Assembly: GCA_015296075.1 (NCBI GenBank) | Contig: DVDV01000060.1 | Coordinates: 1-35,060, forward strand | Direction: 5' to 3' | Length of the DNA stretch: 35,060 bases | Origin: Leptolyngbyaceae cyanobacterium M33_DOE_097 | GTDB lineage: Bacteria > Cyanobacteriota > Cyanobacteriia > Leptolyngbyales > Leptolyngbyaceae | Shown here: piece after piece, positions 1,515 through 24,634 of the stretch | How the letters are laid out: each line of letters starts with the position of its first letter | Numbering within the stretch: position 1 is the first letter of the stretch | Position numbers and translations under genes: made by a program | Notes under the pieces: model-generated | What the model was told of the DNA's origin: nothing | The model's input: the letters and a program-made list of their open reading frames with translations, nothing else | The model's database searches: none

Positions 1515-2909
1515 CTAATCCCGATCTTTTGCCGCCCGTTTTGCGTGAGTGGTTGCCATTTCTAACGTAAACAAGCTCCCTTGCCCTACTAGACTTTCGA
1601 CGTTGAGATGGGCTTGATGCTTTTGGGCAATTGCCTGGGCGATCGCCAACCCCAATCCTGTTCCTCCTGTTTTGCGAGAGCGATCGCCATCTACTCGATA
1701 AAAGCGATCAAAGATTTTGCTTTGTTCAGTCAGCGGAATCCCAACCCCTGTATCTTTCACAGTAATGATGGCAGCGCGATCGCGAACGGTGAGACTCGCG
1801 CTCACCTGTCCTCCACTGGGTGTGTATTGAATGGCATTGGCAATCAAATTCGACACTAAGCGGTAGAGTTGCGATTCATCGCCCAGGACATAAACCTCAA
1901 AATTGGGAAGTTGGCTGGTTAGATGAATATCTGATGCTGTTGCAAGCTCTAAAAACTCTTCAGTTAAATCGTTGATGAGATCATTTAAGCAGCAGGGTTG
2001 AAAGGGCTTTGGCGATGAATTTTGCTCAAGACTAGTTAGAAAAAGTAAATCTGTGATCAAATAGCTCAATCGCCGCCCTTGTCGCTCAACGGTGTACAGC
2101 ATCGTTTGGGTATTGTGTTGATTGGATTGGGGAACTCGCAAGATGGCTTCTACGGTTGCCAGTAAGCTGGCTAAGGGCGATCGCAACTCATGGGCTGCAT
2201 TGGCGGTAAACTGCTGCTGTTGCTGGTAGGACTGATAAATGGGCTGCATCGCCAACCCGGAGAGCCACCAACTTGAAACAGCTACCAAACCCAGTGCAAT
2301 CGGAAATCCGATGATGAATGTCCATTGAATGCGCCTGGTTTCAGCGTCGAAAGATGCCAAAGTACGTCCAATTTGCAGATAGCCCCAGGATGGATGGTTA
2401 GTTGTTTGAGTTGCCTGATGTTTTGCATCGGCACTATGTAAAACTGTTGTAAATTGACGATAGCGCGTACCATCAGCAGTATGAATGGTTTGCCAAGAAG
2501 CAGAATTCAATGAGTTAGAAATTTGAGTCGGGTGGTTAGCCGAGAAAGCAAGCAGCTTTCCGTGGTAATCAAACAAGCGAATGTAATATATGTTGCGATC
2601 GCTAATACCGGTTGTATGTCGTTGAATTAACGTAGGGCTAACAGCACACAGTTGATCAGCCAGACATAAATCAGGAAAAATGCGCTGTAAAGTAATTGCC
2701 GGATCGCCCGACGCAGGTAACATTGGCTCTAAGCTGTCGTGCAGGGTTCCAGCAATAGACTCAATTTCTCGTTCTAAAGCTGCCCAGTTAGACTGAACAA
2801 TTGCCCGATAAATCCCAACTCCAGATAGGCTTAAAATTATCCCCATCACAAGCACGTACCAGAGTGCCAAACGGGTACGGCTGCGACGAAAAAGCTGGTG
2901 ACTGTTCAT
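1515..2909 (-). CDS. rppB: Sensor histidine kinase, RppB/NrsS type
   Basis: Membrane histidine kinase of 464 residues. One membrane helix lies at about 14-36 and a second at about 195-218. They bracket an extracytoplasmic sensor domain of roughly 160 residues with two cysteines (C82, C88) that could take part in metal sensing. The dimerisation helix carries the phospho-accepting His240 in AAHELRSP. The ATPase domain shows the N box (LIANAIQYTP), G1 (DTGVGIP) and G2 (GGTGLGLAIAQ). The ATG lies 9 nt after the stop of the response-regulator gene, so the two form one operon. In Synechocystis the related NrsS/RppB protein works with NrsR/RppA, and the Nrs system controls nickel resistance. The efflux genes just across the divergent promoter suggest the same role here. 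The ligand is inferred from context only. Confidence 0.88.
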   Translation of the reverse strand: MNSHQLFRRSRTRLALWYVLVMGIILSLSGVGIYRAIVQSNWAALEREIESIAGTLHDSLEPMLPASGDPAITLQRIFPDLCLADQLCAVSPTLIQRHTTGISDRNIYYIRLFDYHGKLLAFSANHPTQISNSLNSASWQTIHTADGTRYRQFTTVLHSADAKHQATQTTNHPSWGYLQIGRTLASFDAETRRIQWTFIIGFPIALGLVAVSSWWLSGLAMQPIYQSYQQQQQFTANAAHELRSPLASLLATVEAILRVPQSNQHNTQTMLYTVERQGRRLSYLITDLLFLTSLEQNSSPKPFQPCCLNDLINDLTEEFLELATASDIHLTSQLPNFEVYVLGDESQLYRLVSNLIANAIQYTPSGGQVSASLTVRDRAAIITVKDTGVGIPLTEQSKIFDRFYRVDGDRSRKTGGTGLGLAIAQAIAQKHQAHLNVESLVGQGSLFTLEMATTHAKRAAKDRD

Positions 2910-2918
2910 AGCAGTTGT

Positions 2919-3611
2919 TCACAAGGCTGTGTTGAATCGATAACCCTGAGCCGGAATAGTTTCGATCGGGCATTCGCAACCATAGCTGGCTAACTTGCGT
3001 CGCAACAGGCGCATTTGTGCTGCAACTACATTGCTGACCGGTTCCTCTTCTAAATCCCAGAGTTGATGCCGAATTTTGCTACCTGAAATGATGCGATTGG
3101 GATTTTGCATGAGATAGGCAAGAATCTGAAATTCCTTCACAGTTAACGGAATCGCTTGAGGCGGCTGAGCGCGTTCGCTGCACAGGACATTGTTGGCATA
3201 ATCTAGCGTGAATGCCCCAAGTGTGAGGTTTTGGGGCTGGAGTTGGGGCGATCGACGCTGAAGTGCCCGCAGCCGCGCCAGCAGTTCTTCCATCACAAAT
3301 GGTTTGACCAAGTAATCATCGGCTCCAGCATCCAGTCCGGCAATTCGGTTTTCAGGTTGACCCAGAGCAGTCAGCATTAGTACAGGTAGGGGATTTTTGT
3401 GCAACCTAAGACGCTGACATAATTCCAGTCCTGATAATCCGGGAATTAGCCAATCGACGATCGCCACCGTGTAATCGGTCCACTGGCTTTCCAGACAGTG
3501 ACATGCCTCAGCACCATCAGCTACCCAGTCCACCACATATTTTTCGCTGATCAAAACTTGCTTAATCGCCAGTCCCAGATCCGCTTCATCTTCTACCAGT
3601 AAAATCCGCAT
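2919..3611 (-). CDS. rppA: Response regulator, OmpR family, RppA/NrsR type
   Basis: Two-component response regulator of 230 residues, the normal length for the OmpR/PhoB class. The receiver domain (about 1-118) has the acidic pair E7-D8, the phospho-acceptor Asp53 (IVDWLIPG) and the conserved lysine in LVKPF. The C-terminal winged helix (about 130-230) ends in ETIPAQGYRF, typical of the family. The opening MRILLVEDEADLG and the segment AGLDAGADDYLVKPF match the cyanobacterial RppA/NrsR group as I recall it. It is the first gene of a leftward operon with the kinase. It most likely activates the divergent efflux genes starting at 3729, and perhaps its own operon, from the shared 117-bp spacer. 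Confidence 0.9.
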   Translation of the reverse strand: MRILLVEDEADLGLAIKQVLISEKYVVDWVADGAEACHCLESQWTDYTVAIVDWLIPGLSGLELCQRLRLHKNPLPVLMLTALGQPENRIAGLDAGADDYLVKPFVMEELLARLRALQRRSPQLQPQNLTLGAFTLDYANNVLCSERAQPPQAIPLTVKEFQILAYLMQNPNRIISGSKIRHQLWDLEEEPVSNVVAAQMRLLRRKLASYGCECPIETIPAQGYRFNTAL

Positions 3612-3659
3612 GGCTCCAGGAAATCAACCACAAGATTGATTCTACAGAAACCGCGGCCA

Positions 3660-3679
3660 TTTCACCTGGTTTTCATCTG
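3660..3679. promoter_or_regulatory. Direct repeat with 11-bp period, candidate RppA/NrsR binding site
   Basis: TTTCACCTG at 3660-3668 is repeated as TTTCATCTG at 3671-3679. The copies match at 8 of 9 positions with an 11-bp offset. OmpR/PhoB-class regulators typically bind tandem half-sites 10-11 bp apart, and this pair lies near the middle of the 117-bp spacer between rppA and the efflux genes. Binding is inferred. Confidence 0.45.
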
Positions 3680-3728
3680 CTTTTTGGCAAGCTATGGAAG
3701 ATCTTTCTAGCCCTAGAGCGAGTGAACC

Positions 3729-4430
3729 ATGCGTTATCCCCAGAGACCCTTTTTAGAGGCTGTCCTAGTCACTATACTTTTGCTATCTGTGCCAAAAGCC
3801 GCTGTTGCTCATGTCGGTCATGGCGATGAGTTTCAGGCCACAGGCGGAATTGAACGGGTGCAGGTAAATGCCGAAACCGATCAGATGTTGGGCATTGTTG
3901 CCACCCCGATCGAGCCAGCTGCCGACGGTAGCTCAGCGATTATGGTTCCCGCTACCGCAGTGGTGGATGCAGACGGTAAGCAGTTGGTTTTTGTGCAATA
4001 CAACGATTTTTATGAGCCAGTTGAAGTGACAACGGGTGCAGCCCAAGGCGAACTGATTGAGATCACTCAAGGATTGTCAGTCGGGGAAAATCTTGTCACT
4101 CAGGGCAGCCTGTCACTCTATGCCGAATCTCGCAAAACTCAAGCCGCGCCCAGCCCAGATGCGATCGCTTCTCCTCAAACTTCTCCTCAAGCTGCTGATC
4201 ACGCTCAGGCAGATGCCGCTGGCATCGCTCACAGCCATGATGCTGCTGGCAACATGACCGAACAGCCGGGTGATGCGGCGGGTGATGTGGCTCAGCGCTC
4301 CGGCGGATTTCCGATCGGCTGGCTGGCTGCCCTTGGCGGAGGAGCCGCGCTGTTGGTGGGCGCGATCGCCGTGCTGGGTGGTGGGCGCAAAAAGAAGAGC
4401 GCCTTTTCCGACAAGAAAGGGGGTTACTAA
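3729..4430 (+). CDS. Short metal-efflux adaptor-like membrane protein (HlyD/CusB C-terminal region)
   Basis: Product of 233 residues with an N-terminal signal sequence (about 8-27) followed by a His-containing start (HVGHGDE). Residues about 40-135 resemble the beta-barrel and membrane-proximal part of CusB/HlyD adaptors (MVPATAVVDADGKQLVFVQ, then GLSVGENLVTQGS). A Gln/Ala/Asp-rich linker with scattered His follows at about 136-190, then one membrane helix (about 197-218) and a basic tail. Ordinary adaptors are about 350-500 residues and have a coiled-coil hairpin and lipoyl domain; both are missing, and the C-terminal anchor is unusual. The stop is 6 nt before the pump gene, so the two are co-transcribed. 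It probably joins the pump and may bind metal, but with no hairpin it may not reach an outer-membrane channel. No such channel gene is visible here. Confidence 0.7.
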   Translation: MRYPQRPFLEAVLVTILLLSVPKAAVAHVGHGDEFQATGGIERVQVNAETDQMLGIVATPIEPAADGSSAIMVPATAVVDADGKQLVFVQYNDFYEPVEVTTGAAQGELIEITQGLSVGENLVTQGSLSLYAESRKTQAAPSPDAIASPQTSPQAADHAQADAAGIAHSHDAAGNMTEQPGDAAGDVAQRSGGFPIGWLAALGGGAALLVGAIAVLGGGRKKKSAFSDKKGGY

Positions 4431-4436
4431 TTTAAG

Positions 4437-7400
4437 ATGTTCAACTCAATTTTGAATCAGACGCTCAAGAACTCGATCGCCCAGCGATGGTTTATTGTAA
4501 TCTGTGCAATTTTAGTGACCCTGTGGGGTGTGGTAAGCGTTACCCAGATGCCGCTGGACGTGTTTCCCGAATTTGCACCTCCTCAAGTTGATATCCATAC
4601 TGAAGCGACTGGACTTGCGCCAGAGGAAGTGGAATCACAAATTACCGTGCCCATTGAAAGCGCAGTGAATGGCTTGCCGGGAGTAACCACTGTCAGATCG
4701 TCCTCTAAGGTGGGATTGTCAATGGTTCAAGTGGTGTTTGACCAGGATGCCGATATTTACAAAGCTCGGCAATCAGTAACGGAACGGCTCCAGCAAGTCA
4801 CCAATCAGCTTCCTGAAGGGGTGCATCCTCCCGAAATTTCGCCTTTGGCATCTCCGCTGGGCACCATTTTGATGTATGCCTTTACGGTCAATGGGCAGGG
4901 GCAAACCTCGCTGATGGAACTGCGTCGTTTAGTAGAAGTCACTCTCAGCAACCAAATTTTGTCCGTACCAGGTGTTACTGATGTCACGATCTACGGTGGG
5001 GATGAGCGTCAGGAACAAGTACTGGTTGATCCCGCAAAACTGCGATTGCTCAACGTGTCTCTCACCGAAGTCACGGATGCTGCCAGAGGCGCAAATTCTA
5101 ATGCCCCTGGTGGATTCCTGATTGGTGGGGGTCAAGAGCTATTGGTGCGCGGGATTGGGCAGGTGAGATCCATTGAAGATTTGCAAGAATCCGTCGTGAA
5201 AGTTCAGGACGGCAAGCCAGTTCTTCTTAAAGATGTGGCAGAAGTCACAACCGGAGCCGCATTGAAGCGCGGTGATGGCAGCTTTGACGGGCAGCCTGCG
5301 GTAGTGATGATGATTAACAAACAGCCTGATGTTGATACGCCTACCGTCACCAAAGCAGTGGAAGCAGTGATGCGATCGTTGCAGCCGACCTTTCCTCCTG
5401 ATGTTCAGGTTGCACGGACGTTCCGCCAGTCAAATTTTATTGATTCTGCCATCAGCAATGTCAGCGTTTCTCTAATAGAAGGCATCGTTATCGTTTCCGT
5501 GATTATGCTGCTGTTCTTGATGAACTGGCGGACGGCAGTGATTACCCTGAGCGCAATTCCACTGTCTTTGTTGATTGGGTTGATGTTTATGAAAGCGTTT
5601 GGCTTGGGCATCAACACAATGACACTAGGCGGGTTAGTCGTTGCCATCGGCTCAGTCGTCGATGACTCGATCGTGGATATGGAAAACTGCTATCGCGGAC
5701 TTCGCACCAATCAGGCACAGGGTAACCCCAAGCACCCCTTTCAAGTGGTCTACGACACCTCTGTGGAAGTACGGCTGGCGGTAATTTTTTCCACGGTGAT
5801 TATCGTCGTGGTGTTTGCACCGATCTTTAGTTTGACGGGTGTGGAGGGACGGATTTTTGCGCCGATGGGTTTGGCTTATTTGCTCTCGATCGCAGCTTCT
5901 ACCCTGGTCGCCATGACCCTTTCCCCTGCCCTCTGTGCCATTCTGCTAGCCAATCAAACTCTGCCCCAAGAAGGCACATTTATTTCACGCTGGGCAGAAC
6001 GGCTGTATCGTCCTCTGCTCAACCTGTCGCTTCGATCGCCCCAAATTATTTTGGGCTTGGCGCTGGCTGCACTGGTCGCTGCTTTTGCGATCGTTCCTTC
6101 CTTAGGGCGAGTGTTCTTGCCAGAATTCCAGGAAAAATCATTGGTCAACTCAATGGTGCTGTTCCCCGGTGTTTCGCTGGACATGACGAATCGGGCAGGG
6201 GTAGCGCTCTCCAACTCACTCAAAGATAATCCGCTGTATGAGTGGGTGCAGGTGCGAGCAGGGCGCACGCCGGGTGATGCAGATGGGGCAGGGGTCAACA
6301 TGGCACACGTTGACGTAGAACTTAGCGATCTGGCGCTGAAAGACCGGGAAGCCAGTGTGAAACAACTGCGTGAAGCGTTCCTCAAATTACCTGGTGTTGC
6401 ACCTAATATTGGCGGGTTTATCTCCCACCGCATGGATGAAGTGCTGTCTGGGGTGAGAAGCGCGATCGCTGTAAAAATCTTCGGACCTGACCTGACTGAA
6501 CTGCGGCGGATTGGCGAACAGGTGCGCGATGTCATCCAGCCCATTGCTGGGGTTGTAGATTTGCAGCTTGAACCCCAATTGCCGATTCGCCAGGTGCAAA
6601 TTCAATACGATCGGGCTGCTGCTGCAACTTACGGATTGAGTATGGAGCAGTTGTCAGAGATCGTGGAAACGGCTCTGAACGGTCGTGTCGTGTCGCAGGT
6701 GGCAGAGAACCAGCAGCTTATTGATATTTCCATCTCGCTGACAGAGCAGGCTCGCAATAGTCTAGACGCGATTCGCGCCATTCCCATCAGCACGCCTACC
6801 GGAGAAACCATTCCACTGGGTAATGTTGCTAGCGTTGAGTACGGCATGGGAGCCAATGTAGTAAATCGGGAAGACGTTTCACGCCTCATTGTCGTTTCCG
6901 CCAATGTTGCAGAACGTGATTTGGGTAGTGTAGTAGGCGATATTCAAACTCAGCTTCGGCAAAAGGTGCAGTTGCCCAATGGCTACTTTATCCAGTACGG
7001 CGGGCAATTCGAGGCGGAGCAAAATGCTACCAATAACCTGCTGATTTTTAGCATTTTGGCGATCATCGTTATTGCAGTGCTAATGTTCTTCTCAGTGAAG
7101 TCCTTGCCTGCCACGATCGCCATCATGATCAACCTACCGTTAGCGCTGGTGGGTGGCATTGTTTCCATTGCTTTGACTGGCGGCGTAATTTCGATCGCGT
7201 CTTTGATCGGATTCATTACCCTATTTGGTGTTGCCGTCCGCAACGGTTTGTTGTTGGTAGACAACTACAACAACAAGTTTGCTCAAGGGATGCACCTCAA
7301 AGATGTCATTGTCAACGGTTCTCTGGAGCGAGTAAACGCCATTCTAATGACTGCTCTCACTTCCGCCCTGGGGATGCTGCCGTTGGCAATCGCCAGTGGA

Positions 7401-7601
7401 GCCGGAAACGAGATTCTGCAACCCTTAGCGATCGTAGTTTTAGGTGGTTTGTTTACCTCCACGGCACTGACTTTGTTAGTCATTCCTGCTGTCTACGCAA
7501 AGTTTGGCAAACGCTTGATGCCCAAGCAAAAATCAGCCGCAGTTGAGACGGGTTTTCCGGTGACTGCGGAGCCACAACCATCGACCAGTTCAGTGTTGTA
7601 G
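4437..7601 (+). CDS. Heavy-metal efflux RND permease (HME family, CzcA/CusA/NrsA-like)
   Basis: Proton-driven inner-membrane pump of 1054 residues, full length for the RND superfamily. The N-terminus shows the first membrane helix and the motif MPLDVFPEFAPPQVDIHTEA, typical of heavy-metal RND pumps. Two large periplasmic loops alternate with two groups of membrane helices. The fourth helix region carries acidic residues D409, D410, D414 and E416 (VVDDSIVDMEN), where HME pumps have their proton-relay acids. This signature differs from the Zn/Co/Cd CzcA form (DFGIIVDGAVV) and resembles the less characterised HME group, so the ion cannot be read from it. It is second in the operon with the adaptor-like gene and lies next to rppA-rppB, matching the logic of the Synechocystis nrs locus for Ni and Co. 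The end is intact. Confidence 0.9.
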   Translation: MFNSILNQTLKNSIAQRWFIVICAILVTLWGVVSVTQMPLDVFPEFAPPQVDIHTEATGLAPEEVESQITVPIESAVNGLPGVTTVRSSSKVGLSMVQVVFDQDADIYKARQSVTERLQQVTNQLPEGVHPPEISPLASPLGTILMYAFTVNGQGQTSLMELRRLVEVTLSNQILSVPGVTDVTIYGGDERQEQVLVDPAKLRLLNVSLTEVTDAARGANSNAPGGFLIGGGQELLVRGIGQVRSIEDLQESVVKVQDGKPVLLKDVAEVTTGAALKRGDGSFDGQPAVVMMINKQPDVDTPTVTKAVEAVMRSLQPTFPPDVQVARTFRQSNFIDSAISNVSVSLIEGIVIVSVIMLLFLMNWRTAVITLSAIPLSLLIGLMFMKAFGLGINTMTLGGLVVAIGSVVDDSIVDMENCYRGLRTNQAQGNPKHPFQVVYDTSVEVRLAVIFSTVIIVVVFAPIFSLTGVEGRIFAPMGLAYLLSIAASTLVAMTLSPALCAILLANQTLPQEGTFISRWAERLYRPLLNLSLRSPQIILGLALAALVAAFAIVPSLGRVFLPEFQEKSLVNSMVLFPGVSLDMTNRAGVALSNSLKDNPLYEWVQVRAGRTPGDADGAGVNMAHVDVELSDLALKDREASVKQLREAFLKLPGVAPNIGGFISHRMDEVLSGVRSAIAVKIFGPDLTELRRIGEQVRDVIQPIAGVVDLQLEPQLPIRQVQIQYDRAAAATYGLSMEQLSEIVETALNGRVVSQVAENQQLIDISISLTEQARNSLDAIRAIPISTPTGETIPLGNVASVEYGMGANVVNREDVSRLIVVSANVAERDLGSVVGDIQTQLRQKVQLPNGYFIQYGGQFEAEQNATNNLLIFSILAIIVIAVLMFFSVKSLPATIAIMINLPLALVGGIVSIALTGGVISIASLIGFITLFGVAVRNGLLLVDNYNNKFAQGMHLKDVIVNGSLERVNAILMTALTSALGMLPLAIASGAGNEILQPLAIVVLGGLFTSTALTLLVIPAVYAKFGKRLMPKQKSAAVETGFPVTAEPQPSTSSVL

Positions 7602-10240: not shown

Positions 10241-11428
10241 TCAATTGAGTTGACGCATAAATGCTCCTTGCTTGTGGCGATGCTGAATGCCTAACCCCAA
10301 CAAAAATCCCAGGATCACAAGTCCAATCATGTAAGTTAGGGATATCAGTCGGACAGATAACGGGGGCGCAACACCTTGAACTGAAAGCGTTTGTGCGACT
10401 TGGAAAGGCTGAAACTGTCGAGTTGAAGTTGCTTGGGGTGCAACTTCAACTTCAATTTTGTGCGGCGCACCATCAAAGAATTGCTGTTGCCATGTGAGGT
10501 TTCCGGTGCTGTCTGGAATCCCCTCATAAGCAAACGCCACCCAATTATTTTCTAATTGTGTAGCGGCTACTTTCAAGCTTACATTCGATACTGGCTGTTT
10601 AGTGTTGGCATCCATCACGCTGACGTTTAGGGTGGCAGGTTGCCCCACTGTGGCACTTAGATCCCCAGATAGCTGCATCTCTAGTCCCTGTGATTGCATC
10701 TGGGCGGGTGTCTCCAGGGGGGGTACGTCTTCCGTTGGGTGAGACATTGCCATTGCCAGATGAGATTGCGCCAGTTCAGCATTGATGTTGACGAAGAGGA
10801 GGGTGGCGATCGCCACTACAATTGCGCCACTTAACAATAGCTGCACTCGTTGTGGGGACACTTCTCCCGGTTGAATGGGCTGTTTGCCGCCAATTACCCA
10901 TCCACCGACAAGTCCAACGGTCAACAGTATGACTGCTAGAATCGCAAAGTTTTGAAGTTTTACCCCATTTTCTGCCACTGATAGAGTCAGGGTTTGCTGA
11001 AATGGCACAAAGGCTGCGGGCGCGATCGGTTTGACATTAACCAATAATCGATACGTTCCCCGCACTGGCAGCATTTGTTGAAACTGCAACTCACCTTTAG
11101 GTGCTAGAGCCTCCATGTCAAGCAATGTGGTGCCTTCCACGATTGGAAAATCCGTTGGTAGCCAAGGATTTCGCGGCGGGGTCAAAATTTGCAGGTGTAT
11201 CTGGGCATCCTCAACCGGAAGACCTGCGGAGTCCATTGCTTGTAGCATCACCTGCACAGGAGATTGAAGATTTGTTGCTTCTGCTTCAAAGGGCCGTATC
11301 TGGCTAACGGCTGGAGTAGTAGTTAATTGTACAGAAGGCTGAGGTTGAGATAATCCAATCCAACCACTAAAAACAATTGCCATCAGGAAAATTGCGCTGA
11401 TGAGCACGGAACGCTTGAGTCTTGACAT
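10241..11428 (-). CDS. Unrecognised membrane protein, duplicated TM-Ig-TM architecture, in the cobalamin-riboswitch operon
   Basis: I do not recognise this 395-residue protein as a named family. It has a helix at about 7-27, an Ig-like beta domain at about 30-155, two helices at about 158-182 and 195-216, a second Ig-like domain at about 240-350 and a last helix at about 362-385, then a basic HRHKQG tail. The halves are related: SPVQVMLQAMD parallels QPATLNVSVMD, KGELQFQQ parallels TGNLTWQQ, and PFQQTLTLSV parallels PFQVAQTLSV, each followed by a membrane helix. It is a tandem duplication with both Ig domains on the outer face. It follows cbtB by 48 nt and shares its riboswitch, in the place where cbtA is usually found. 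CbtA has five or six helices and no Ig domain, so this is not CbtA. A role in cobalt uptake is inferred from position. Confidence 0.75.
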   Translation of the reverse strand: MSRLKRSVLISAIFLMAIVFSGWIGLSQPQPSVQLTTTPAVSQIRPFEAEATNLQSPVQVMLQAMDSAGLPVEDAQIHLQILTPPRNPWLPTDFPIVEGTTLLDMEALAPKGELQFQQMLPVRGTYRLLVNVKPIAPAAFVPFQQTLTLSVAENGVKLQNFAILAVILLTVGLVGGWVIGGKQPIQPGEVSPQRVQLLLSGAIVVAIATLLFVNINAELAQSHLAMAMSHPTEDVPPLETPAQMQSQGLEMQLSGDLSATVGQPATLNVSVMDANTKQPVSNVSLKVAATQLENNWVAFAYEGIPDSTGNLTWQQQFFDGAPHKIEVEVAPQATSTRQFQPFQVAQTLSVQGVAPPLSVRLISLTYMIGLVILGFLLGLGIQHRHKQGAFMRQLN

Positions 11429-11476
11429 AGAGTTTTATCTTGAACGTTTACAACACGAACTAGCTGAACCCAATCC

Positions 11477-11668
11477 TTAATGACAGCTCACCAGCGCCGT
11501 ATGGTGACGGAGCGAATGAACCCGATCGTGAACGGCTGGATAGGTCGTGAAGTAAACAGTCCAGAGAATGAGTCCACAAAGCGAGACGTAAAGTGCTGAT
11601 TGTACAGGCACTGAAAGCGTCCAGCGAGTGACTTGTTGCTGAATGGAACTAGGAGATTGAGCCGTCAT
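11477..11668 (-). CDS. cbtB: CbtB, small subunit of a predicted cobalt transporter
   Basis: Protein of 63 residues with a single membrane helix (about 21-41, ALYVSLCGLILWTVYF). The C-terminus is rich in metal ligands, VHDRVHSLRHHTALVSCH, the CbtB hallmark of spaced His ending in Cys-His. I chose the ATG at 11668 over one at 11701 because GAGG lies 6 nt upstream of it and the upstream ATG falls in the 3' edge of the riboswitch. CbtA/CbtB were predicted as cobalt importers because they are controlled by cobalamin riboswitches, as here. No cbtA adjoins; the next gene encodes a different membrane protein. Cobalt would feed B12 synthesis. Confidence 0.85.
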   Translation of the reverse strand: MTAQSPSSIQQQVTRWTLSVPVQSALYVSLCGLILWTVYFTTYPAVHDRVHSLRHHTALVSCH

Positions 11669-11702
11669 CTTGTACCTCGCAGATGAGATTGGAACATGCA
11701 CG

Positions 11703-11830
11703 ATCGGCGGGCATTCTGGCTAAGAGTTTTAAGTAAGGTACTCTTTCACAGTTGCGGGACAGCGTTGGACTTACACCTAACTTTCCCCGTTACCTCTGAT
11801 GGCTGCTCCCCATCAGAACCGATTACCCAA
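11703..11830 (-). ncRNA. Cobalamin (B12) riboswitch upstream of cbtB
   Basis: On the minus strand the conserved cobalamin-aptamer core is easy to read: GGGGAAAGTTAGGTG, then AAGTCCAACGCTGTCCCGC and AACTGTG (about 11747-11788). The 5' arm GGTTCTGATGG and paired CCATCAGAGG precede it. The 3' closing segment AGCCAGAATGCCCGCC lies at about 11706-11721. The order and spacing match the B12-box element. It sits directly upstream of cbtB, whose GAGG ribosome-binding site follows about 25 nt later. This fits repression of translation or transcription when adenosylcobalamin is plentiful. Boundaries are approximate. Confidence 0.92.
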
Positions 11831-11832
11831 GA

Positions 11833-11838
11833 ACTATA
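11833..11838 (-). promoter_or_regulatory. Candidate -10 element of the cbtB operon
   Basis: TATAGT on the minus strand lies just upstream of the 5' edge of the riboswitch, where the start of the leader RNA is expected. A good -35 box is not seen at 17-18 bp, which would fit activation by a regulator bound to the GTAAA array further upstream. Confidence 0.4.
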
Positions 11839-14504: not shown

Positions 14505-15887
14505 ATGCAATCCTTCCAACTGTTTCGCAGCCTTCGCAACCCAGTTTTTGCCCGTTTATATGCCGCGCAAACAACCAATTTGCTGGGTGATGCGCTCACT
14601 TGGTTAGGTCTGGCGCTGCTTGCGTTTGAATTAGCCGGGAAAGATTCAGCCGTTGTGCTGTCAGTAGCCTTGACCTTACGAGTGACCGCGTTTGTTATAC
14701 TGTCGCCGTTTGCAGGGGTACTTGCCGATCGCCTCGATCGCAAAACCATTCTCGTAACGACGCACTTAGCACGAATGGGCATTGTCAGTTTGCTGCCCTT
14801 TGTGAATGCTATCTGGCAGATCTATGTACTTGTCTTTGCCCTGAACGTCTTTTATGCATTCTTTACGCCGACCTATCAAGCCACCATTCCGCTAGTGACA
14901 GGGCAAGAAGACTATCCGCAGGCGATCGCCCTTTCCAGTGCAACCTTTCAACTATTAGGCGTTCTCGGTCCCGGCATTGCAGGCGCGATCGCGGCTTTTG
15001 TTGGGGCAAGGCAAGTCTTTTTTCTAGATGCCTTCACATTTTTAATTGCAGCTATTTTAATCGTCACTCTGCCCGGTCAACTGCGGGTTGAACAAACACC
15101 CGATCAAACCCGTTCATCGGGTCGAACGTGGCGTGATATCTGGGCAGGTACGACTCGCCTGTTTGCTGATAGCTATCTTCGATATGCCCTGGCAATGCAG
15201 TTCGTCGCTTCTGTTACAGGAGCACAAGTTCTCGTCAATACTGTGGGTTATGTTCAAGGCACCCTCAAATTGAGTGGCGTTCAATATGGTTGGGTGATGG
15301 GTGCGTTTGGCATCGGGGCAACCCTGGCGGCGGTTGCCGTTGGGTCGCTCGGTCAGCGTTGGGCACGGACAACTCTGATTATGCTGGGAGCAATCCTGAT
15401 TACGATCGCGCTGTTGCCTGCTAGCTACGTTGGACTCATCCTGTTGATGCTGCTGTGGTTAGTGGCAGGGGCAGGACAAACATTGGTTAACGTGCCTGTT
15501 CAGACGTTGATCGCCGATCGAACCCCAACTGAGTTTCAGGGACGGGTTTACGGTGCCCATTTTGCCTGGAGCCATCTTTGGTGGGTATTTGCCTACCCAC
15601 TGGCAGGATGGTTGGGAAGCAATCAAAAAGAGTTGCCGTTTCTCTACGGGAGTTTAATAGGTTTCGTTTTGCTTGCGATCGTTCAACTCCTTCTTTCACC
15701 TAAAGAACAAGAGCATGTCCATGAGAGCTATTGGCATGAGCATGAACATCATCACGACGAACATCATCAACACAAGCATCATCCCGGCATCTTAGTGGCA
15801 GAGTCTCATTTGCACCCTCACCAGCACAGAGTAATTCGTCATGCCCATGCCTACTCTGATTCACACTGTCACCATGAATATGGTTAG
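14505..15887 (+). CDS. nrsD: MFS metal exporter with His-rich tail (NrsD/NreB-like)
   Basis: Major-facilitator protein of 460 residues with about twelve membrane helices in residues 15-400. The loop after helix 2 has the MFS motif GVLADRLDRKTILV. The tail from about 404 to 460 contains 21 His in 57 residues plus one Cys, in runs such as HEHEHHHDEHHQHKHH. NreB and NrsD nickel exporters have this architecture, with the tail as a metal-binding sensor or buffer. The perfect GC-tract operator just upstream supports control by a nickel/cobalt-responsive repressor. In Synechocystis nrsD belongs to the nrs locus; here the exporter is about 7 kb from the RND pump and has its own promoter. Ni is the most likely substrate, with Co as an alternative. 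Confidence 0.82.
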   Translation: MQSFQLFRSLRNPVFARLYAAQTTNLLGDALTWLGLALLAFELAGKDSAVVLSVALTLRVTAFVILSPFAGVLADRLDRKTILVTTHLARMGIVSLLPFVNAIWQIYVLVFALNVFYAFFTPTYQATIPLVTGQEDYPQAIALSSATFQLLGVLGPGIAGAIAAFVGARQVFFLDAFTFLIAAILIVTLPGQLRVEQTPDQTRSSGRTWRDIWAGTTRLFADSYLRYALAMQFVASVTGAQVLVNTVGYVQGTLKLSGVQYGWVMGAFGIGATLAAVAVGSLGQRWARTTLIMLGAILITIALLPASYVGLILLMLLWLVAGAGQTLVNVPVQTLIADRTPTEFQGRVYGAHFAWSHLWWVFAYPLAGWLGSNQKELPFLYGSLIGFVLLAIVQLLLSPKEQEHVHESYWHEHEHHHDEHHQHKHHPGILVAESHLHPHQHRVIRHAHAYSDSHCHHEYG

Positions 15888-16035
15888 TCAAAAGGTCAAC
15901 GGAATATGCTCGAAGCGTTCTGAACTTAGGCAGGATGAGCGATCACTCATGCAATTTACTCAAAAACTTTAGGGTTTAACCACCCCACATTGTTCGATTT
16001 GTGGAATTATGAAAGAAATATGAAAATAAAACGAT

Positions 16036-17124
16036 ATGGATCTGAGTTTCAATCGACGATCGCTCATCGGCAGTGGCGTTTTGGGTGCTGGGGCATTACT
16101 GAGTAAGCTTCTGCCCAATAGTGTCTTTGCCCAAACTCCCACTTCTGTGGACACTAGCCTACCTTCAGAGCATTCTGTGCCCGTGCATGGAGGCAGCATG
16201 ACGATGGGAGATGTAGACAATGCCCGCAACGGATTTGATCCGCAAGCGATCTTGACAGATTGGAATGCAGGAAAAGTCTCACCATTGCCCGATGGCAAGA
16301 CGCTGCGGGAGTTTGAAATCTCAATCGCAGAACGAGACGTTGAGATTGCCCCTGGAGTTGTTTATCCTGCCTGGACTTATAATGGGCGCGTTCCGGGGCC
16401 AACTTTACGGGTGACGGAGGGCGATCGCGTCCGGATTCGCTTCAAAAATCCGGGGATTCATCCTCACACGCTCCACTTTCATGGGATTCACTCGGCTCGA
16501 CAAGATGGCGTTCCCGGTACGCTCGAAGCATTTCCTGCACAGGAGGTGGTGTATGAGTTTGATGCCAAACCCTTTGGCTGTCACCTCTATCACTGTCATT
16601 CTGCCCCATTCAAACGGCACCTACACAAAGGACTCTACGGCGCGTTCATCATTGATCCTGACCCCAAACGGCACCCTGACCAGGAAGAAGTGGCTCAGTC
16701 TCGGTTGTTAGGCAGTTCAGAGAATTCCAAGTGGCAAGAACTTTTGATGGTGATGAATGCATTTGACACCAACTTTGATGAGGCGAACGAATTCTACGCC
16801 ATCAATACGATTCCCCATGAGTTTATGAAACGCCCGATTCGTATTGAGCGCGATCGCCCGGTGCGAGTTTATTTGATTAACGTCACTGAATTTGACCCGA
16901 TCAATTCTTTCCATCTCCACGGCAACTTCTTTGATTACTACGACCACGGCACCACGTTAACACCGACGCTACAAACGGTTGATACCGTGATGCAATGCCA
17001 AGCTCAGCGGGGAATTTTGGAATTTACATTTCAGGAACATGAACCGGGTATTTATATGTTCCATGCCCACCAATCAGAATTTTTGGAACTGGGTTGGATG
17101 AGTGCATTTGAGGTAGTGGCATGA
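16036..17124 (+). CDS. Two-domain multicopper oxidase, probable type C
   Basis: Protein of 362 residues beginning with a Tat-type signal (NRRSLIGSGVLGAGALLSK), so it is exported folded. Two cupredoxin domains follow. Domain 1 has H147/H149 in HTLHFHG and H186-C187-H188 with H195/H197 downstream (YHCH, then HLHKGLYG). Domain 2 has HLH (in NSFHLHGNFF) and HAH (in MFHAHQSEFLELGWM). All four HxH pairs for a trinuclear copper site are present. The type 1 Cys occurs only in domain 1; domain 2 has Ala at that place. That is the pattern of type C two-domain oxidases, which would act as a trimer. Leu200 stands where many type 1 sites have Met, suggesting a higher potential. The gene overlaps the ZIP gene by ATGA, so the products are probably coupled. 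Cuprous, ferrous or manganous ion oxidation is possible. Confidence 0.85.
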   Translation: MDLSFNRRSLIGSGVLGAGALLSKLLPNSVFAQTPTSVDTSLPSEHSVPVHGGSMTMGDVDNARNGFDPQAILTDWNAGKVSPLPDGKTLREFEISIAERDVEIAPGVVYPAWTYNGRVPGPTLRVTEGDRVRIRFKNPGIHPHTLHFHGIHSARQDGVPGTLEAFPAQEVVYEFDAKPFGCHLYHCHSAPFKRHLHKGLYGAFIIDPDPKRHPDQEEVAQSRLLGSSENSKWQELLMVMNAFDTNFDEANEFYAINTIPHEFMKRPIRIERDRPVRVYLINVTEFDPINSFHLHGNFFDYYDHGTTLTPTLQTVDTVMQCQAQRGILEFTFQEHEPGIYMFHAHQSEFLELGWMSAFEVVA

Positions 17125-18278
17125 AGAAAACAACGTGGCTTTGGATCGTTTTGCCGCTAGTAGCACTGGCTGGGGCGATCGCCATTTTTCTTAATAGCAA
17201 TCCTCTAGCTCTATTAGGAGTCTCTACCCCACCCGTCGAAAACTTAATCATCGAACGCACTATCCTCAACGACAAGGGCATTTCGCTTTTGGTCAGAGCA
17301 GAGGGTTCAGAGCCGATGCAGATTGCCCAAGTTCAGGTGGATGGTGCGTATTGGCAATTCAAACAAGATCCACCTGGAGCATTACCTCGCTTAGAAGCAG
17401 CCTGGATTAATGTCCCGTATCCCTGGGTGCAGGATGAAACCCACCATATTGCCTTTATCACCAATACTGGAGCTGGGTTTGAGCATGAAATTACAGTTGC
17501 GGTGCCAACGCCAGGGTTTTCTCTGACTCGTTTGCTCGCCTATGGCTTGCTAGGTTTATATGTGGGCGTACTGCCTGTGGCATTGGGGATGCTCTTCTAC
17601 CCATCCTTGAAAACACTTGGTGGACAAGGGATGAAATTTATTTTGGCGCTGACGCTTGGGATGTTGGCGTTTCTCTTGATCGACACACTTGAGGAAGGAT
17701 TAGAACTGGCTGGCACTGCTGCGACTGCTTTCTCTGGAAATGCTTTAGTTTGGTTGGCAATGGTTGCTTCATTCTTGACTATCTTTACGCTGGGTAGACG
17801 AGGTGGTAAATCTCCTGAAGGACACACCTTAGCAACGTATCTAGCATTCAGCATTGGGTTACATAACCTGGGAGAGGGATTGGCGATCGGCAGTGCTTTT
17901 GCTGTTGGAGAAGCGGCTTTGGGTTCGCTCTTAGTCATTGGTTTCACACTGCACAACGTGACAGAGGGAATCGGTATTGCTGCTCCTCTAGTCGGATTTA
18001 ACCCCAAATTTTCCACATTTTTTGCATTGACTGCTTTAGCAGGGCTACCTGCGGTTTTAGGCACTTGGATTGGAGCCTTTGCCTTTTCCCCTCACTGGGC
18101 AGCCCTGTTTCTGGGAATTGGAGCAGGGGCGATTTTGCAAGTGATGGTAGAGGTTGGCTCGTACCTAATGCGGACTGCCCATAAGCTGGGCGGAACCTGG
18201 CTCTCTAGAGTCAGCTTAGCTGGGTTTGGTGTTGGACTAACTGTAATGTACGCAACGGCTCTGTTGGTGAACGTTTGA
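17121..18278 (+). CDS. ZIP-family metal transporter with N-terminal periplasmic domain
   Basis: Membrane protein of 385 residues. One helix (about 5-25) precedes an extracytoplasmic beta-rich domain (about 35-133), followed by about eight helices with the ZIP metal-binding motifs H248-N249-L-G-E252-G and H278-N279-V-T-E282-G. ZIP proteins usually move divalent metals (Zn, Fe, Mn) into the cytoplasm. The front domain is not part of ordinary ZIP proteins and could dock the oxidase encoded just upstream. Translational coupling is shown by the shared ATGA. An oxidase-transporter pair recalls yeast Fet3-Ftr1, although ZIP is unrelated to Ftr1. Confidence 0.85.
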   Translation: MKKTTWLWIVLPLVALAGAIAIFLNSNPLALLGVSTPPVENLIIERTILNDKGISLLVRAEGSEPMQIAQVQVDGAYWQFKQDPPGALPRLEAAWINVPYPWVQDETHHIAFITNTGAGFEHEITVAVPTPGFSLTRLLAYGLLGLYVGVLPVALGMLFYPSLKTLGGQGMKFILALTLGMLAFLLIDTLEEGLELAGTAATAFSGNALVWLAMVASFLTIFTLGRRGGKSPEGHTLATYLAFSIGLHNLGEGLAIGSAFAVGEAALGSLLVIGFTLHNVTEGIGIAAPLVGFNPKFSTFFALTALAGLPAVLGTWIGAFAFSPHWAALFLGIGAGAILQVMVEVGSYLMRTAHKLGGTWLSRVSLAGFGVGLTVMYATALLVNV

Positions 18279-18459
18279 TCAATAGGCTTTTGAAACCCTG
18301 ATAATTTCGCTGATGATAAGCGATTGCACCCAGATGGAAGCACATACCCTCTTTAGGATAAATCTTTCCAACCTTCGCGGGTTGATTGTTATGGTGGAAC
18401 TGAGTAGTTGGTAACTGTTGTAACCTTGAGTGAGATGGCTTCATTCTGGATTGAAACAG

Positions 18460-18621
18460 AGTCTGCTTCCAGTCGGGTGCACTGGTCACAAATAGTTCCC
18501 CATCAATAATTTCGTAGCGATTGACGCGATCGCCCTCAAAAATTGCCAGATCAGGAAGCGTCCAACAGACTGAATTGGTGGTCGCGGACTGTATAGAACC
18601 GCCTCGCCATTCGTCGAACAT
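18460..18621 (-). pseudogene. Uma2-family (DUF820) nuclease fragment
   Basis: On the minus strand residues 19-47 of an open frame read CWTLPDLAIFEG, then NRYEIIDGELFVTSAPDW. This is the start of the Uma2 domain, which is greatly expanded in cyanobacteria. After about 52 codons the similarity stops and the frame continues (to 18211) as unrelated sequence. The PD-(D/E)xK catalytic core and the rest of the roughly 190-residue domain are missing, so this is a remnant. It lies in the 469-bp stretch between the ZIP gene and the secretion cluster (18279-18747), which otherwise shows nothing that I can support. Confidence 0.6.
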
Positions 18622-18747
18622 ATTTCATCCAGCCTAGTTGTAGCCAGATGGACACCGGATAAATCGCCATTAGATATAGGTAGCTTGAGCGATCGCCTTG
18701 TTAGGGTGACATCTACAGCAACCTTAACTTGTGTTCCAGGGCTGCCT

Positions 18748-20697
18748 ATGGCTACCAAAACACCCACCCGACCCAAGCAGCGACAGAGTACCCAGAAGCG
18801 ATCCTGGCAAAACCTGACCGATCGCCGCAAACTCCGCCATCTTGAAAACACCCTGGATAAAGCCATCACTAAGGCGCTCCAGGAAGGAGGAATTGAGTCT
18901 CATGAGGACTTCAAGGCTTCTGTTGAGTCATTTAGTGAGCGATCGGGCAAGGCTCCCATTACCGTTGAACTTTGTGAAGGTGGTGGCAGTGATGATGAAA
19001 TTCGGGGCTACCGCTTCTACCTCACCAGCGATCCCAATCAAAGAACTAGCGGCAAGTATTTGATCAAGAACCTGGAAGGCGTTACAGATAAGGATGAAAA
19101 CTACTTTACGCCATCCAACATCGCTGAGATGTTTGGGTTTGAAGAGGCAGCATTCGGTGATTTGGATACGGACCTGGATGATGCTCTTGATCTGGACGAT
19201 GACTTGGATGAAGAGCCAGACGAGGCACTGAATACCCTGTTGGATGGAGACCTTGATGATGATCTAGAGGATCTGAGGGATGAAGAGCTTGCTCCAGTTC
19301 CGACAGCTAAAAATCAAGTCAAATTATCATCGAAAGCTCAGAGCAAGACTCAATCTAAGGCGCAGACTCAAGGCAAAGCTAGTCAAGCTCATGGTCGGGA
19401 CTTCCGCTACCGAGACCCGATAGAGGAGGCATCTCGTCTGAGTGCCTCGGCGGCTGTGAACGGACGCGAGACAAATGGGGTCAATGTGGCGGGGCTGGCA
19501 GGGCAACTGGCAGCTCTGGGCATTGTGGTTGGACAGGGGCTGTTAGAAAACCTGGCAGCTCAGGATGACGAAGAACGGATCGAACGAATTGTTCGAGAAC
19601 TTCAGCGGCAGAATGAGCAGGTTGATCATCTAACCAGCCGTTTGCAAGAGGCAACAACCGGGCGCTCAACGGTAACGCCATCGGCGGAACCAGAACCAGT
19701 TGCGGGTGAAAATCCTCTAGCAGATGCGGCTGCAACGGTGGGGAATAAGGTAGACACGCTGGGTGTAAAACTAGACCCCACTTACAAAGGGCAACCCCTG
19801 GAGATTGATCGGGAAGCCAGTATTAGCGAACAGCTTGACCAGATTGAGGCATATCTGGAAGGGCTATCCAAACGGCTTGACCGCTTAGAGGTGGTGGTGA
19901 GTCGTTTGGAGAAGCAAATCGCAGAACAAACCAATTCCGCAATGGTTGAGCCAGAGGTGGATACAGAAGAAAGTCAGGTTGCGGCACCCGTACAAGCGAT
20001 CGCAGAGTCCAAAGTGCTGGAACAACTGATGGCGCGACGCGCTGATCCTGAGCAAATTGCCTGTGCAGAATCATTAGTGGGGTTTGCCAGAGCTGCCAAT
20101 GCAGACTTGGATGATGCCGATCGGGAGGGAATTACGATTTCCAGTAACAAAACGCTGCAACTTGAAGAGCAAGGGAATCAAGTAGCGATCGCCCTTAACA
20201 ACAATCAGGGTAATACCCTTTTTGCAGGCAACCGCACCGATGGACAGTGGGCGATCGCAGCAGATCACCTCAGTTCTGATGAGAAAGCTACCATTGCTAA
20301 ACTTCCCCAGTCCAAGCAGGAATACGCCACCAAAGCCAGTGCCCAGGCATTGATTGCCACCTTCCAGGAACGCTTATCGGATCGATTCAATGGGGAGGCT
20401 GAACCTGTATTCACCTGGACAGATCAAGGTAAAGCCAAGTATGAATTTGAGGTTGTGACGTTACCGAACGGGACTCAGTTGCTACAAGGATTTGACCCGA
20501 ACCACAAGGATGAACAGGTTTTTGATGCCATGTTGGTGCCTGGTCAGTCACCAGACATCTTGCATTGCAGTATTCCAATACGAGAGATGGAGTCAGCCAT
20601 CAATGAACAGATACCTGAACAACCAGATGAAAAGCATCTGAATCGCCGTTCTGGTAAAGCGTCTGCCAAACCGAATCGCGAAGAATTGCAAGTTTAA
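18748..20697 (+). CDS. Unrecognised 649-residue protein, first gene of the secretion cluster
   Basis: I cannot assign a family. I chose the ATG at 18748 because AGGG lies 6 nt upstream; a TTG at 18685 would add 21 atypical residues. The start is basic (about 1-30). Residues about 30-125 form a small domain with GYRFYLTSDPN and GKYLI; this loosely recalls a C-terminal relaxase segment, which I hold weakly. A very acidic stretch (about 132-183, mostly Asp/Leu/Glu) is followed by a Lys/Ser/Gln-rich one (about 188-218). Coiled coils are likely at about 270-300 and 355-400. The last 190 residues look globular, with no membrane segment. It lies 33 bp upstream of the pilin-like gene on the same strand, so it may be a cytoplasmic accessory factor, substrate or DNA-processing partner. 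Confidence 0.6.
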   Translation: MATKTPTRPKQRQSTQKRSWQNLTDRRKLRHLENTLDKAITKALQEGGIESHEDFKASVESFSERSGKAPITVELCEGGGSDDEIRGYRFYLTSDPNQRTSGKYLIKNLEGVTDKDENYFTPSNIAEMFGFEEAAFGDLDTDLDDALDLDDDLDEEPDEALNTLLDGDLDDDLEDLRDEELAPVPTAKNQVKLSSKAQSKTQSKAQTQGKASQAHGRDFRYRDPIEEASRLSASAAVNGRETNGVNVAGLAGQLAALGIVVGQGLLENLAAQDDEERIERIVRELQRQNEQVDHLTSRLQEATTGRSTVTPSAEPEPVAGENPLADAAATVGNKVDTLGVKLDPTYKGQPLEIDREASISEQLDQIEAYLEGLSKRLDRLEVVVSRLEKQIAEQTNSAMVEPEVDTEESQVAAPVQAIAESKVLEQLMARRADPEQIACAESLVGFARAANADLDDADREGITISSNKTLQLEEQGNQVAIALNNNQGNTLFAGNRTDGQWAIAADHLSSDEKATIAKLPQSKQEYATKASAQALIATFQERLSDRFNGEAEPVFTWTDQGKAKYEFEVVTLPNGTQLLQGFDPNHKDEQVFDAMLVPGQSPDILHCSIPIREMESAINEQIPEQPDEKHLNRRSGKASAKPNREELQV

Positions 20698-20730
20698 TTA
20701 ACAAGCTGGATCAGCATTGATGGAGAACCG

Positions 20731-21363
20731 ATGATGCAAAACATTAAAACTCCCGTTACTAAGTCTCACTTAACTCAACTACGTCGTCGCTCTACTCAAC
20801 AGTTGGGGCATTTCAACCTTACCAAACCTGATTTATTGTTCATTGGGCTTTGTGTTGGTGTTGTTATCTATTTGTTGATCAAAGAGCCGTTGCTCATAAC
20901 TATTTTGGGTTGTGCCAGTGTGGTATTCCTCAGCCTCTGGCATTTGATTGAGGCAGTACCCATTCTGGAAAAATACCTGGGTGCCAAAATTCGTTTCTGG
21001 CATATTGCCTCACTCATTATTGCGATCACGGCACTGCTCAATACCTTCGCGGCACCTGCCCAGGCTATCTTTCTCAGCGGATTAGAACAATTTTTTGTCA
21101 ATCTGGCTCAACAAAGTTCACAGGCAGGTGGCGGCACTGCCACGCTGGATGCCAATGTGATCGGGCTAATTTTTAACTTGATTCGAGGGGTGTTTTTATT
21201 ACTGGTTGCTGCTGCGTCACTCTTTGCTTACAACCAGGCTCAGCAAGGAAATGACTGGCGACCGATCGTAACCCAGGTAGGACTGGCATTTGCGATTGTA
21301 ATTGCGATTGATGTGGTCACGTTTATCTTCGTAGGGAATGGTACAGGAACGGCTGGTGGTTGA
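20731..21363 (+). CDS. VirB2-like pilin precursor with N-terminal membrane extension
   Basis: Protein of 210 residues. Residues 113-210 have the plan of a conjugative pilin: after a helix (92-108) ending in the signal-peptidase-like APAQA-I site, about 98 residues follow with two hydrophobic helices (about 144-167 and 178-201) joined by a short polar loop. Gly-rich segments lie before and after. VirB2/TrbC pilins are processed in just this way. The extra N-terminal 90 residues hold two more helices (about 33-50 and 52-75), recalling small VirB3-like proteins, so a fusion is possible. GGAG at 20722-20725 supports the start. It lies directly before the VirB4-like gene, in the usual virB2-3-4 order. 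Confidence 0.6.
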   Translation: MMQNIKTPVTKSHLTQLRRRSTQQLGHFNLTKPDLLFIGLCVGVVIYLLIKEPLLITILGCASVVFLSLWHLIEAVPILEKYLGAKIRFWHIASLIIAITALLNTFAAPAQAIFLSGLEQFFVNLAQQSSQAGGGTATLDANVIGLIFNLIRGVFLLLVAAASLFAYNQAQQGNDWRPIVTQVGLAFAIVIAIDVVTFIFVGNGTGTAGG

Positions 21364-21388
21364 TCTGGCAACGTGAATTGCAAGCATT

Positions 21389-24300: not shown

Positions 24301-24634
24301 TGATCTCTACTCTTGCTGGTTACTAGAACTGGGTGGTTGCTTCTGGAGGACTCGTTTCTACCCTGGTGAATTGATGCTTGCCAGCGTTGCTAACAATCAG
24401 GATGAACGCGAGGCGCGCGATCGGGTGATGGCACACTATTCTCTCACGCCCAAAGGCAGATTACTGGGTTTGAAAGCGTTTGCAGATGAATATATTCCAG
24501 CATTGCGGGAAGGCAAAGGGTTTAGTCATATCGGGCAGGGTTTACCTGTAGAGAAATCAGGGCGATCGCCCCAACAGGAGGATTATCCTAGTGATCCTGC
24601 TGAACATGATCAACGCTCACTTATTGCACGTTAA
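21389..24634 (+). CDS. virB4: VirB4/TraC-type secretion ATPase with N-terminal membrane segment
   Basis: Protein of 1081 residues. Walker A is GTSGSGKS at 637-644; Walker B is SLFIGDEL with D879-E880. Between them are conserved VirB4-like parts, including VVGMDISSSGNS after Walker A; LLLSQDPD follows Walker B. VirB4 ATPases drive pilus assembly and substrate transfer at the inner membrane. Residues about 28-72 form two membrane helices (LGPWVAIVVLCYVITNGFF and GASFWLIASWWIL), absent from classical VirB4, which suggests a fused VirB3/PrgI-like anchor. The gene starts 25 bp after the pilin-like gene. The end is intact, and the stop at 24632-24634 overlaps the ribosome-binding site of the next gene. 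Confidence 0.85.
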   Translation: MERDFNREFIKVNRILGKQASIGPIPADQLGPWVAIVVLCYVITNGFFSLGLGWFFGASFWLIASWWILTGNQPHQFLDRWRNPPGTEWCNGNNIYVSPIPEHRPTWIRKRYGDARVNIRLKPVQVPNQYGGKSTFMPFQNEVNICCIAEIKKDDREVAALLLEKGKSQYQLVFGFRVAGLHDVLYDSEVNAFAHAIEEGMKELPIGERITFCTGCSSDDVARQEELSTLAEECQLKPVSVLTRNEQLRVQQLTQGGTRQTWHQLAFCTWTSDDEAGTQHKDLVGGLIERLRKAGSWVVEQITGNKRVYQEAFFKKLLLQGFQQGFIQWEVLLNTKVGLEVTPCSAADLWQWLWSRFNQGVAPPIPQVITLKETETGLELTETVTTDKHLCTLLIEGTQGRSACPEHRGDHDRIYLTGRGKVCGVMTMTDPPMGWTSTREHLKWVWKILSSSYVHDTEAWIEISRGNDFFIQDNLARQAKQSKAARTIAVTKGQGRDVGAEMKQEESFEAQRRLYEGTKALHCAPVFLVYRNSAEELTHACNLLANSFETAKVIRERHIAWEIWLQALPITCKRLLHGNNLNERRLTLDTHTVAGIIPLTMPKDIDRCGVEFLTGRGGKPIYIDLFHHQIGRALITGTSGSGKSVLGWRFAMEALANNIPVVGMDISSSGNSTFKTAIELLGDQGAYYDISSGSSNLLEPPDLRRFDKLERDRRMESWKDFIRRALSAIAMGKIHNPHLAQRVDALLIRALDVFLRDPEIITRYNRAFEMGWRSPEWQQIPTLPDFIKFCTRERLNLRSFEDLDRHSLNQIQSQVSALLASRLGKAIARPSTFSPEPAIKFFALSGLTNEQDAYLMAINAHAACIRNALSHPRSLFIGDELSVLLRRDGFAQIVGETCATGRKDGIAVLLLSQDPDTICECSAGSQIMQNINYRITGRITSSGINSFQRYLGYPPNIISQNATEAFLPRSSDLYSCWLLELGGCFWRTRFYPGELMLASVANNQDEREARDRVMAHYSLTPKGRLLGLKAFADEYIPALREGKGFSHIGQGLPVEKSGRSPQQEDYPSDPAEHDQRSLIAR

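Follow-up and report, generated by a model that had tools for sequence, protein, structure and literature searches.

The question raised by this locus is what function can be given to a gene that follows a cobalamin riboswitch and cbtB, in the place where CbtAB systems have CbtA. The locus lies in a window of 35,060 nucleotides (the whole stretch of DNA that was analysed). This is contig 47 in an assembly of 6.96 Mb, the relatives of which in our searches are cyanobacteria. The second gene is called X here, and the elements concerned are the following:

11689..11838, minus strand: cobalamin riboswitch aptamer (RF00174), 51.1 bits (gathering score 31.5; E 4.6e-10)
11674..11689, minus strand: hairpin AUCUC-AUCUGC-GAGGU of the minimum-energy fold, directly after the aptamer and containing the cbtB ribosome-binding site
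11477..11668, minus strand: cbtB, 63 aa, PF09489 at 27.6 bits (cut-off 27), ATG start just after GAGG
10241..11428, minus strand: gene X, open reading frame of 395 aa without Pfam or NCBIfam family, 48 bases after cbtB
10691..10777, minus strand: His/Met-rich linker of X (residues 218-246), between helix 3 and Ig domain 2
10460..10480, minus strand: FFDGAPH motif of X (residues 317-323) with the invariant His323, a His in 51 of 51 homologues

The aptamer exceeds the gathering threshold of its Rfam family, in agreement with a first-pass annotation made from the letters of the DNA, which had named a riboswitch here. It is this match that constitutes the evidence, since the fold of the whole leader is no more stable than that of shuffled sequences (z 0.19). 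Between the end of the aptamer and the cbtB start there are 20 bases, and in an alignment of 16 leaders the GAGGTA ahead of the start codon is nearly invariant. As the ribosome-binding GAGG lies within the predicted hairpin, it is likely that the riboswitch acts on the translation of cbtB; promoter and terminator scans gave results at chance level. The genome of the window has one further cobalamin riboswitch (L001:1501-1647, minus strand; G000:C218). It is followed by two open reading frames of 145 and 153 aa (L001:386-1287, minus strand), alike by eye and without Pfam family, which are possibly an unknown B12-regulated pair.

The open reading frame of cbtB extends in full over 11477-11701 on the minus strand from a GTG, the likely start being the ATG at 11668. 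Its product was also called CbtB in the first-pass annotation, and the match to PF09489 upholds the name marginally, the score of the protein standing just above the cut-off and that of the six-frame genome search just below it (26.6 bits), whereas for the CbtB equivalog TIGR02459 it reaches 18.6 bits, below the cut-off of 64.4. The protein has one predicted membrane helix and a C-terminal HDxxHxxRHH...CH tail. An H-x3-H-x2-RH tail with a CH end is found in 45 of 46 CbtB proteins (FH in L043), a constancy that the pattern search of open reading frames does not itself show, because the regular expression required a tail of the His/Cys type. Two published results concern the role of CbtB, one in Methylococcus capsulatus and the other in the strain 'denitrificans ATCC 13867', which we take to be a Pseudomonas. 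In the former, a knock-down of cbtB improved growth, as did less cobalt in the medium, the cobalt of which proved growth-limiting (PMC13108547). In the latter, coenzyme B12 suppressed four named genes, with cbtBA the most affected at 43-fold (PMC8123684). By analogy, both results agree with a cobalt-uptake role for CbtB.

The identity of X with CbtA was considered and rejected. PF09490 had no match in the genome of the window nor in 385 other cyanobacterial genomes, while a control search with Haloferax was positive, so that no CbtAB system was found in these 386 genomes and the earlier statement that the second gene is not CbtA is borne out. The best E-values of X are 0.035 against Pfam and 0.047 against NCBIfam, both far under the cut-offs, and at E <=1 neither X nor any of 21 homologues has a Pfam match to CbiN, NikN, NikK or NikL. 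The YtkA-like family (PF13115) was matched by 8 of these 21 homologues (best E 0.0053), the X of the window being without a match. A sequence search of solved structures gave five weak matches, the best of them to a short segment within a giant protein. A phage origin of X is unsupported, as tblastn found no match in 50,697 phage records; the best E-value against PHROGs was 0.057.

The link between X and CbtB was assessed in 386 cyanobacterial genomes, drawn from a larger group and including that of the window. The X profile matches 31 of them, in 27 of which X is substantial (counting G334, where it is split over two frames); the other four (G129, G149, G352 and G013) hold fragments or weak matches. 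CbtB was found at E <=0.001 in 25 genomes, at 26 places, above the Pfam cut-off in 18 genomes and below it, in the genome search, in the remainder, which include that of the window. At all 26 places X is present within about 1.5 kb. Conversely, CbtB is never missing where X is substantial: of these 27 genomes, 25 have it by Pfam and two (G060 and G167) by reading of an open reading frame ahead of X (loci L028 and L023). Among the 47 loci L003-L049 (L026 is the window, L028 repeats L021 and L024 repeats L007), CbtB lies upstream of X within 0.5 kb in 46. The exception is Aliterella (L019), where a pyrE-like gene, named by eye, is upstream of X; the CbtB of this genome lies elsewhere, with its own riboswitch and with no X in the 3.1 kb around it. 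Pfam detected no CbtB at E <=0.001 in the genome of L020, where the CbtB was assigned by reading an open reading frame with the typical tail. G376 carries two cbtB-X copies (L108 and L111), one in each of two clades of the X tree. No homologue of X outside cyanobacteria was found among 20 genome-scan loci, a search with the reach of close relatives, and 15 plasmid records.

The association of CbtB and X is therefore real, as the first-pass annotation had proposed from one locus, and the homologues listed do not lie mostly away from cbtB, riboswitches and cobalt genes. Because the pair is B12-controlled at this locus and X is in the company of CbtB in the cyanobacterial genomes sampled, X is probably an undescribed component of cobalt uptake in some cyanobacteria.

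Along the protein, X is predicted to consist of a helix, Ig-like domain 1, a helix, a short loop, a third helix, the His/Met-rich linker, Ig-like domain 2 and a last helix. The AlphaFold2 model, built with 21 sequences, has a mean pLDDT of 79.6 and a pTM of 0.72. It predicts a helix at residues 3-23, beta strands at 32-151, helices at 155-180 and 193-228, beta strands at 243-351 and a helix at 357-394; pLDDT falls below 50 at 189-200 and 213-237. The same strands were predicted when the N-terminal half was modelled alone (pLDDT 82.4). Judging from the charges, both ends of the protein would be inside. X had earlier been described as two related Ig-like halves held between membrane helices, and the modelled architecture agrees with this. 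That the two halves are related is moderately supported: their profile comparison gave an hhalign score of 40.2 with the helices included, where 100 column shuffles reached no more than 22.4, and of 29.5 for the Ig parts alone, where 200 shuffles reached no more than 27.1. A separate hhalign run, that of the tool itself, gave an E-value of 2.6e-4 and a probability of just 42.5%, for which reason the support is regarded as moderate.

Both Ig domains have Ig/macroglobulin-type domains as structural neighbours, with best VIA Z-scores of 10.2 for domain 1 and 7.8 for domain 2. For domain 1 the best Foldseek rows are PmoD and CrdA (E 1e-4 to 5e-4), and VIA lists FetP at Z 7.8. This domain shares its beta-sandwich with PmoD (Foldseek E 1e-4), CrdA (VIA Z 9.1, rmsd 2.8, 98 residues aligned), FetP and the YtkA-like proteins; however, unrelated Ig/macroglobulin domains score equal or higher, up to the best Z given above, and the likeness is one of fold only. 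A shared fold of this kind shows no function, and since common Ig and macroglobulin domains dominate the searches with the whole model, no family was assigned from the fold.

The linker of X is rich in His. In 51 homologues its His content is 0.0875 per residue, against 0.0095 elsewhere in the protein, with at least one His in all 51 and at least two in 40. It is rich in both Met and His in the clade of the window, and most other rows have His without Met. The His residues of the linker and His323 are thus possible metal ligands, as judged by conservation, and would fit the capture of cobalt and its transfer to the CbtB tail, as suggested in the first-pass annotation, without proving it.

The best account of the gene content, the gene order and the riboswitch is a role in cobalt uptake, which is supported by context. 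We propose, with a probability of about 0.6, that cobalt is taken up with the help of an inner-membrane module of CbtB and X, which feeds permeases. CbtB would span the membrane with one helix and expose its His/Cys tail, and X would expose on the same outer side its two membrane-anchored Ig-like domains, along with the His/Met-rich linker and the invariant His of its second half. Together they would collect Co(II) on the periplasmic side and hand it to an inner-membrane permease, which would vary by lineage: CbiM(N)QO, encoded near X, in several genomes of the family to which Desmonostoc belongs, and elsewhere perhaps HupE or an FTR1-like protein; in the genome of the window the permease is possibly unlinked (CbiM or HupE). 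In the ancestral form the cobalamin riboswitch by the cbtB ribosome-binding site would lower expression when B12 is plentiful, and in other lineages this control would have been lost or replaced.

The gene neighbourhood bears on the part of the proposal that concerns permeases. In 7 of the 27 genomes with X (G101, G074, G328, G338, G382, G385 and G245), cbiM, cbiQ and the gene for an ABC ATPase are found downstream of X on the same strand. All seven belong to family f7, which is presumably Nostocales because Desmonostoc is one of its members, contig G376:C254 having an X identical to that of L007. The cbiM gene starts 0.43 to 3.9 kb after X, far enough to have a promoter of its own. It is the very next gene in four genomes (L085-L088), and other open reading frames intervene in L089, L090 and L091. 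At L088, the one locus of the seven that was checked with Pfam, CbiM with a PDGLE domain, CbiQ and ABC_tran are confirmed. This gene order is absent in the window, where the genes after X show no link to cobalt. In L020, the most divergent row, a riboswitch, a CbtB-like open reading frame and X are followed by CobW (499 bits, cut-off 332.1), and in G014 a truncated HupE (67.1 bits) starts 124 bases after X. In G197, which has a NicO match of 79.7 bits, X is followed by a gene that by eye is an FTR1-like permease. At 14 of 52 loci the gene after X falls into one cluster, a member of which is DUF1636 by Pfam. In Desmonostoc a gene for a BtuB-like receptor (TIGR01779, 188.6, below the cut-off of 599.7), which has a cobalamin riboswitch, points away from cbtB-X. 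The names FTR1, TauE/SafE-like, ferritin-like, pyrE and multicopper oxidase were given to neighbours partly by eye. The link of X to cobalt and B12 drawn in the first-pass annotation is thus sustained by the riboswitch upstream and by CobW, CbiMQO and the truncated HupE as downstream genes.

Since a CbiM-CbiQ-CbiO set follows X in these seven genomes, an accessory role seems more plausible for X than that of a substitute permease. By analogy with CbiN, which presents the metal to CbiM (PMC7689651), X would offer the metal to the permease and not be a second permease itself. The earlier phrase 'in place of CbtA' is right for gene content and probably does not extend to a substitute permease. 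It is unlikely, in our view, that CbtB and X are instead the importer itself, with the four helices of X and CbtB forming the membrane path and no other permease taking part. Most loci have no recognised permease directly after X (most of these neighbours being without a family search), G197 has neither CbiM nor HupE, and the helix residues K157, G172, G175, G176, S200, N214, A217 and E218 of X are conserved, all of which can be read in favour of such an importer. Nevertheless the helices are few, the model with its stretches of low pLDDT predicts no confident helix core, and in seven genomes the CbiM-CbiQ-CbiO genes come after X.

The preferred reading of CbtB and X as a module that feeds permeases was also considered at the level of whole genomes. 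CbiM is present in 24 of the 27 genomes with X (broken in one) and HupE in 20, so the module fills no obvious gap. NicO exceeds its cut-off in 10 of the 27, and HupE_UreJ_2 in none. In 53 genomes without X, CbiM was found in 25 and HupE in 16, and CobW exceeds its cut-off in all 27 genomes with X against 16 of the 53, a contrast not taken as proof, since small and distant genomes are numerous among the controls. CobW was also seen 0.03-0.65 kb downstream of a same-strand cobalamin riboswitch in four cyanobacterial genes:

G091:C3:4298359-4299586, CobW behind riboswitch
G280:C2:1831443-1832624, CobW behind riboswitch
G296:C90:14449-16237, CobW behind riboswitch
G125:C1:304200-305751, CobW behind riboswitch

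A survey of 2009, in contrast, stated that cyanobacterial cobW is not under B12 riboswitches (PMC2770081).

Control by B12 was part of the original proposal, and for the locus of the window the riboswitch match agrees with it; it is not a general property of cbtB-X. A riboswitch that passes the gathering score precedes cbtB-X in 8 of the 27 genomes (G000, G060, G014, G133, G167, G197, G296 and G308), at 7 of 20 genome-scan loci (L003, L005, L010, L012, L015, L020 and L021) and at 5 of the 6 plasmid loci that were fetched from 15 plasmid records. In the tree of 51 X proteins it accompanies 19 rows, leaving 32 without a match. The 19 rows are spread over many branches, including the long, most divergent one, and the state changes at least six times on the tree, the root of which is a midpoint only. 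A simple reading, under this root, is that the riboswitch is probably ancestral and was lost several times. In most relatives of Nostoc the conserved ribosome-binding site is still preceded by the end of the aptamer, and another conserved leader, which has short inverted repeats, has taken the place of the earlier part (upstream of cbtB in L004, L006-L009, L011, L013, L014, L016, L018 and L022). This is perhaps a change of regulator.

The lineages without the riboswitch bring up the question of the metal. Nickel, alone or with cobalt, may be what the module serves, at least in the branch with cbiM, where it is possible; as a whole we consider this reading doubtful. The CbiM that was examined, which has a PDGLE domain, might import nickel. 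In a permissive scan no riboswitch was found at 18 of 20 CbtB loci, 17 of these 20 loci being of family f7, and NikKMLQO systems appear to have switched metal in five proteobacteria (PMC2667541). The riboswitch and CobW neighbours on other branches speak against nickel, as do the DUF1636 gene near X and, in Desmonostoc itself, the riboswitch-led BtuB-like receptor gene.

Other metals are brought in by the plasmid copies of X. The 15 plasmid records with an X match annotate it as hypothetical or unknown in 14 and have no feature for it in one. At the six loci fetched, the neighbours are genes for metal P-type ATPases, multicopper oxidases, Nramp, ZupT-like or RND proteins. Moreover, a multicopper-oxidase-like gene, recognised by eye and clustering, lies within about 2.6 kb of X at 16 of 27 genome loci. 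PmoD is a copper protein and CrdA is one by its title. Because of the copper, zinc and RND efflux genes around the plasmid copies, and of these two fold neighbours of Ig domain 1, another metal is possible. X could then be a periplasmic protein that travels with resistance islands and buffers copper or other metals or confers resistance to them, tied to CbtB through regulation only. We hold this to be quite improbable, as there would be little reason for B12 to repress copper resistance and CbtB accompanies X outside plasmids too in our sample.

The window itself is probably a plasmid or an integrated conjugative element. Its regions 1515-7601 and 14505-29746 hold a two-component system, an RND-pump-like protein recognised by eye and clustering, and TraC-like and TrbI-like genes below cut-offs. 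Weak matches, likewise below cut-offs, point to a conjugation ATPase, ZupT and an oxidase of copper resistance. At four other loci (L019, L021, L080 and L103) a secreted-looking protein of 208-249 aa, without Pfam family in L080, faces X from the opposite strand downstream, and in three of the four the protein that comes next is in the membrane, was named TauE/SafE-like by eye and has an HCxGMCGP motif.

Cobalt uptake by a CbtB-X module resembles several known systems without coinciding with any of them. An earlier survey describes CbtAB and several other predicted cobalt transporters (PMC2667541). With CbtAB (PF09489 and PF09490) the locus shares a CbtB with a His/Cys tail and the cobalamin riboswitch in front, and differs from it in that CbtA is absent and a membrane protein with two Ig domains is found in its place. 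Like the small components of the CbiMNQO and NikMNQO systems (CbiN/NikN, NikK-NikL), X is membrane-anchored, probably periplasmic, and in the seven genomes near CbiMQO; moreover the plan of CbiN and NikN, two helices (PMC2667541, PMC7689651) around an outer part, is similar. In contrast to them, X has four helices and two folded Ig-like domains and mostly occurs without CbiMQO. The HupE/UreJ permeases likewise serve cobalt uptake under a cobalamin riboswitch in cyanobacteria (PMC4284471, PMC7689651), but have no sequence match to X, and a truncated HupE follows X in one genome only. HupE and CbiMNQO are the cyanobacterial systems given in a review (PMC4284471), and according to another source cobalt uptake in cyanobacteria and its control are still to be established (PMC10878165). 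In the literature searched there was no paper on X, on CbtB in cyanobacteria or on CbtB without CbtA, and a cobalt system in which CbtB has a different partner is new with respect to that literature.

The strict presence of a partner gene with a defined architecture makes the role of CbtB testable, and since the permeases next to it are exchanged, capturing the metal and moving it across the membrane may be separable steps. A wider form of the idea, which we put forward tentatively and consider doubtful, is that CbtB-X is a portable metal-capture adaptor which stays constant while the permease is exchanged (CbiMQO, HupE or FTR1-like) and which also travels on conjugative plasmids. Should this be true, it would be a periplasmic loading of both secondary and ECF permeases, which was not found described in the literature searched, and the plasmid copies would let the hosts of metal-efflux islands still obtain cobalt for B12.
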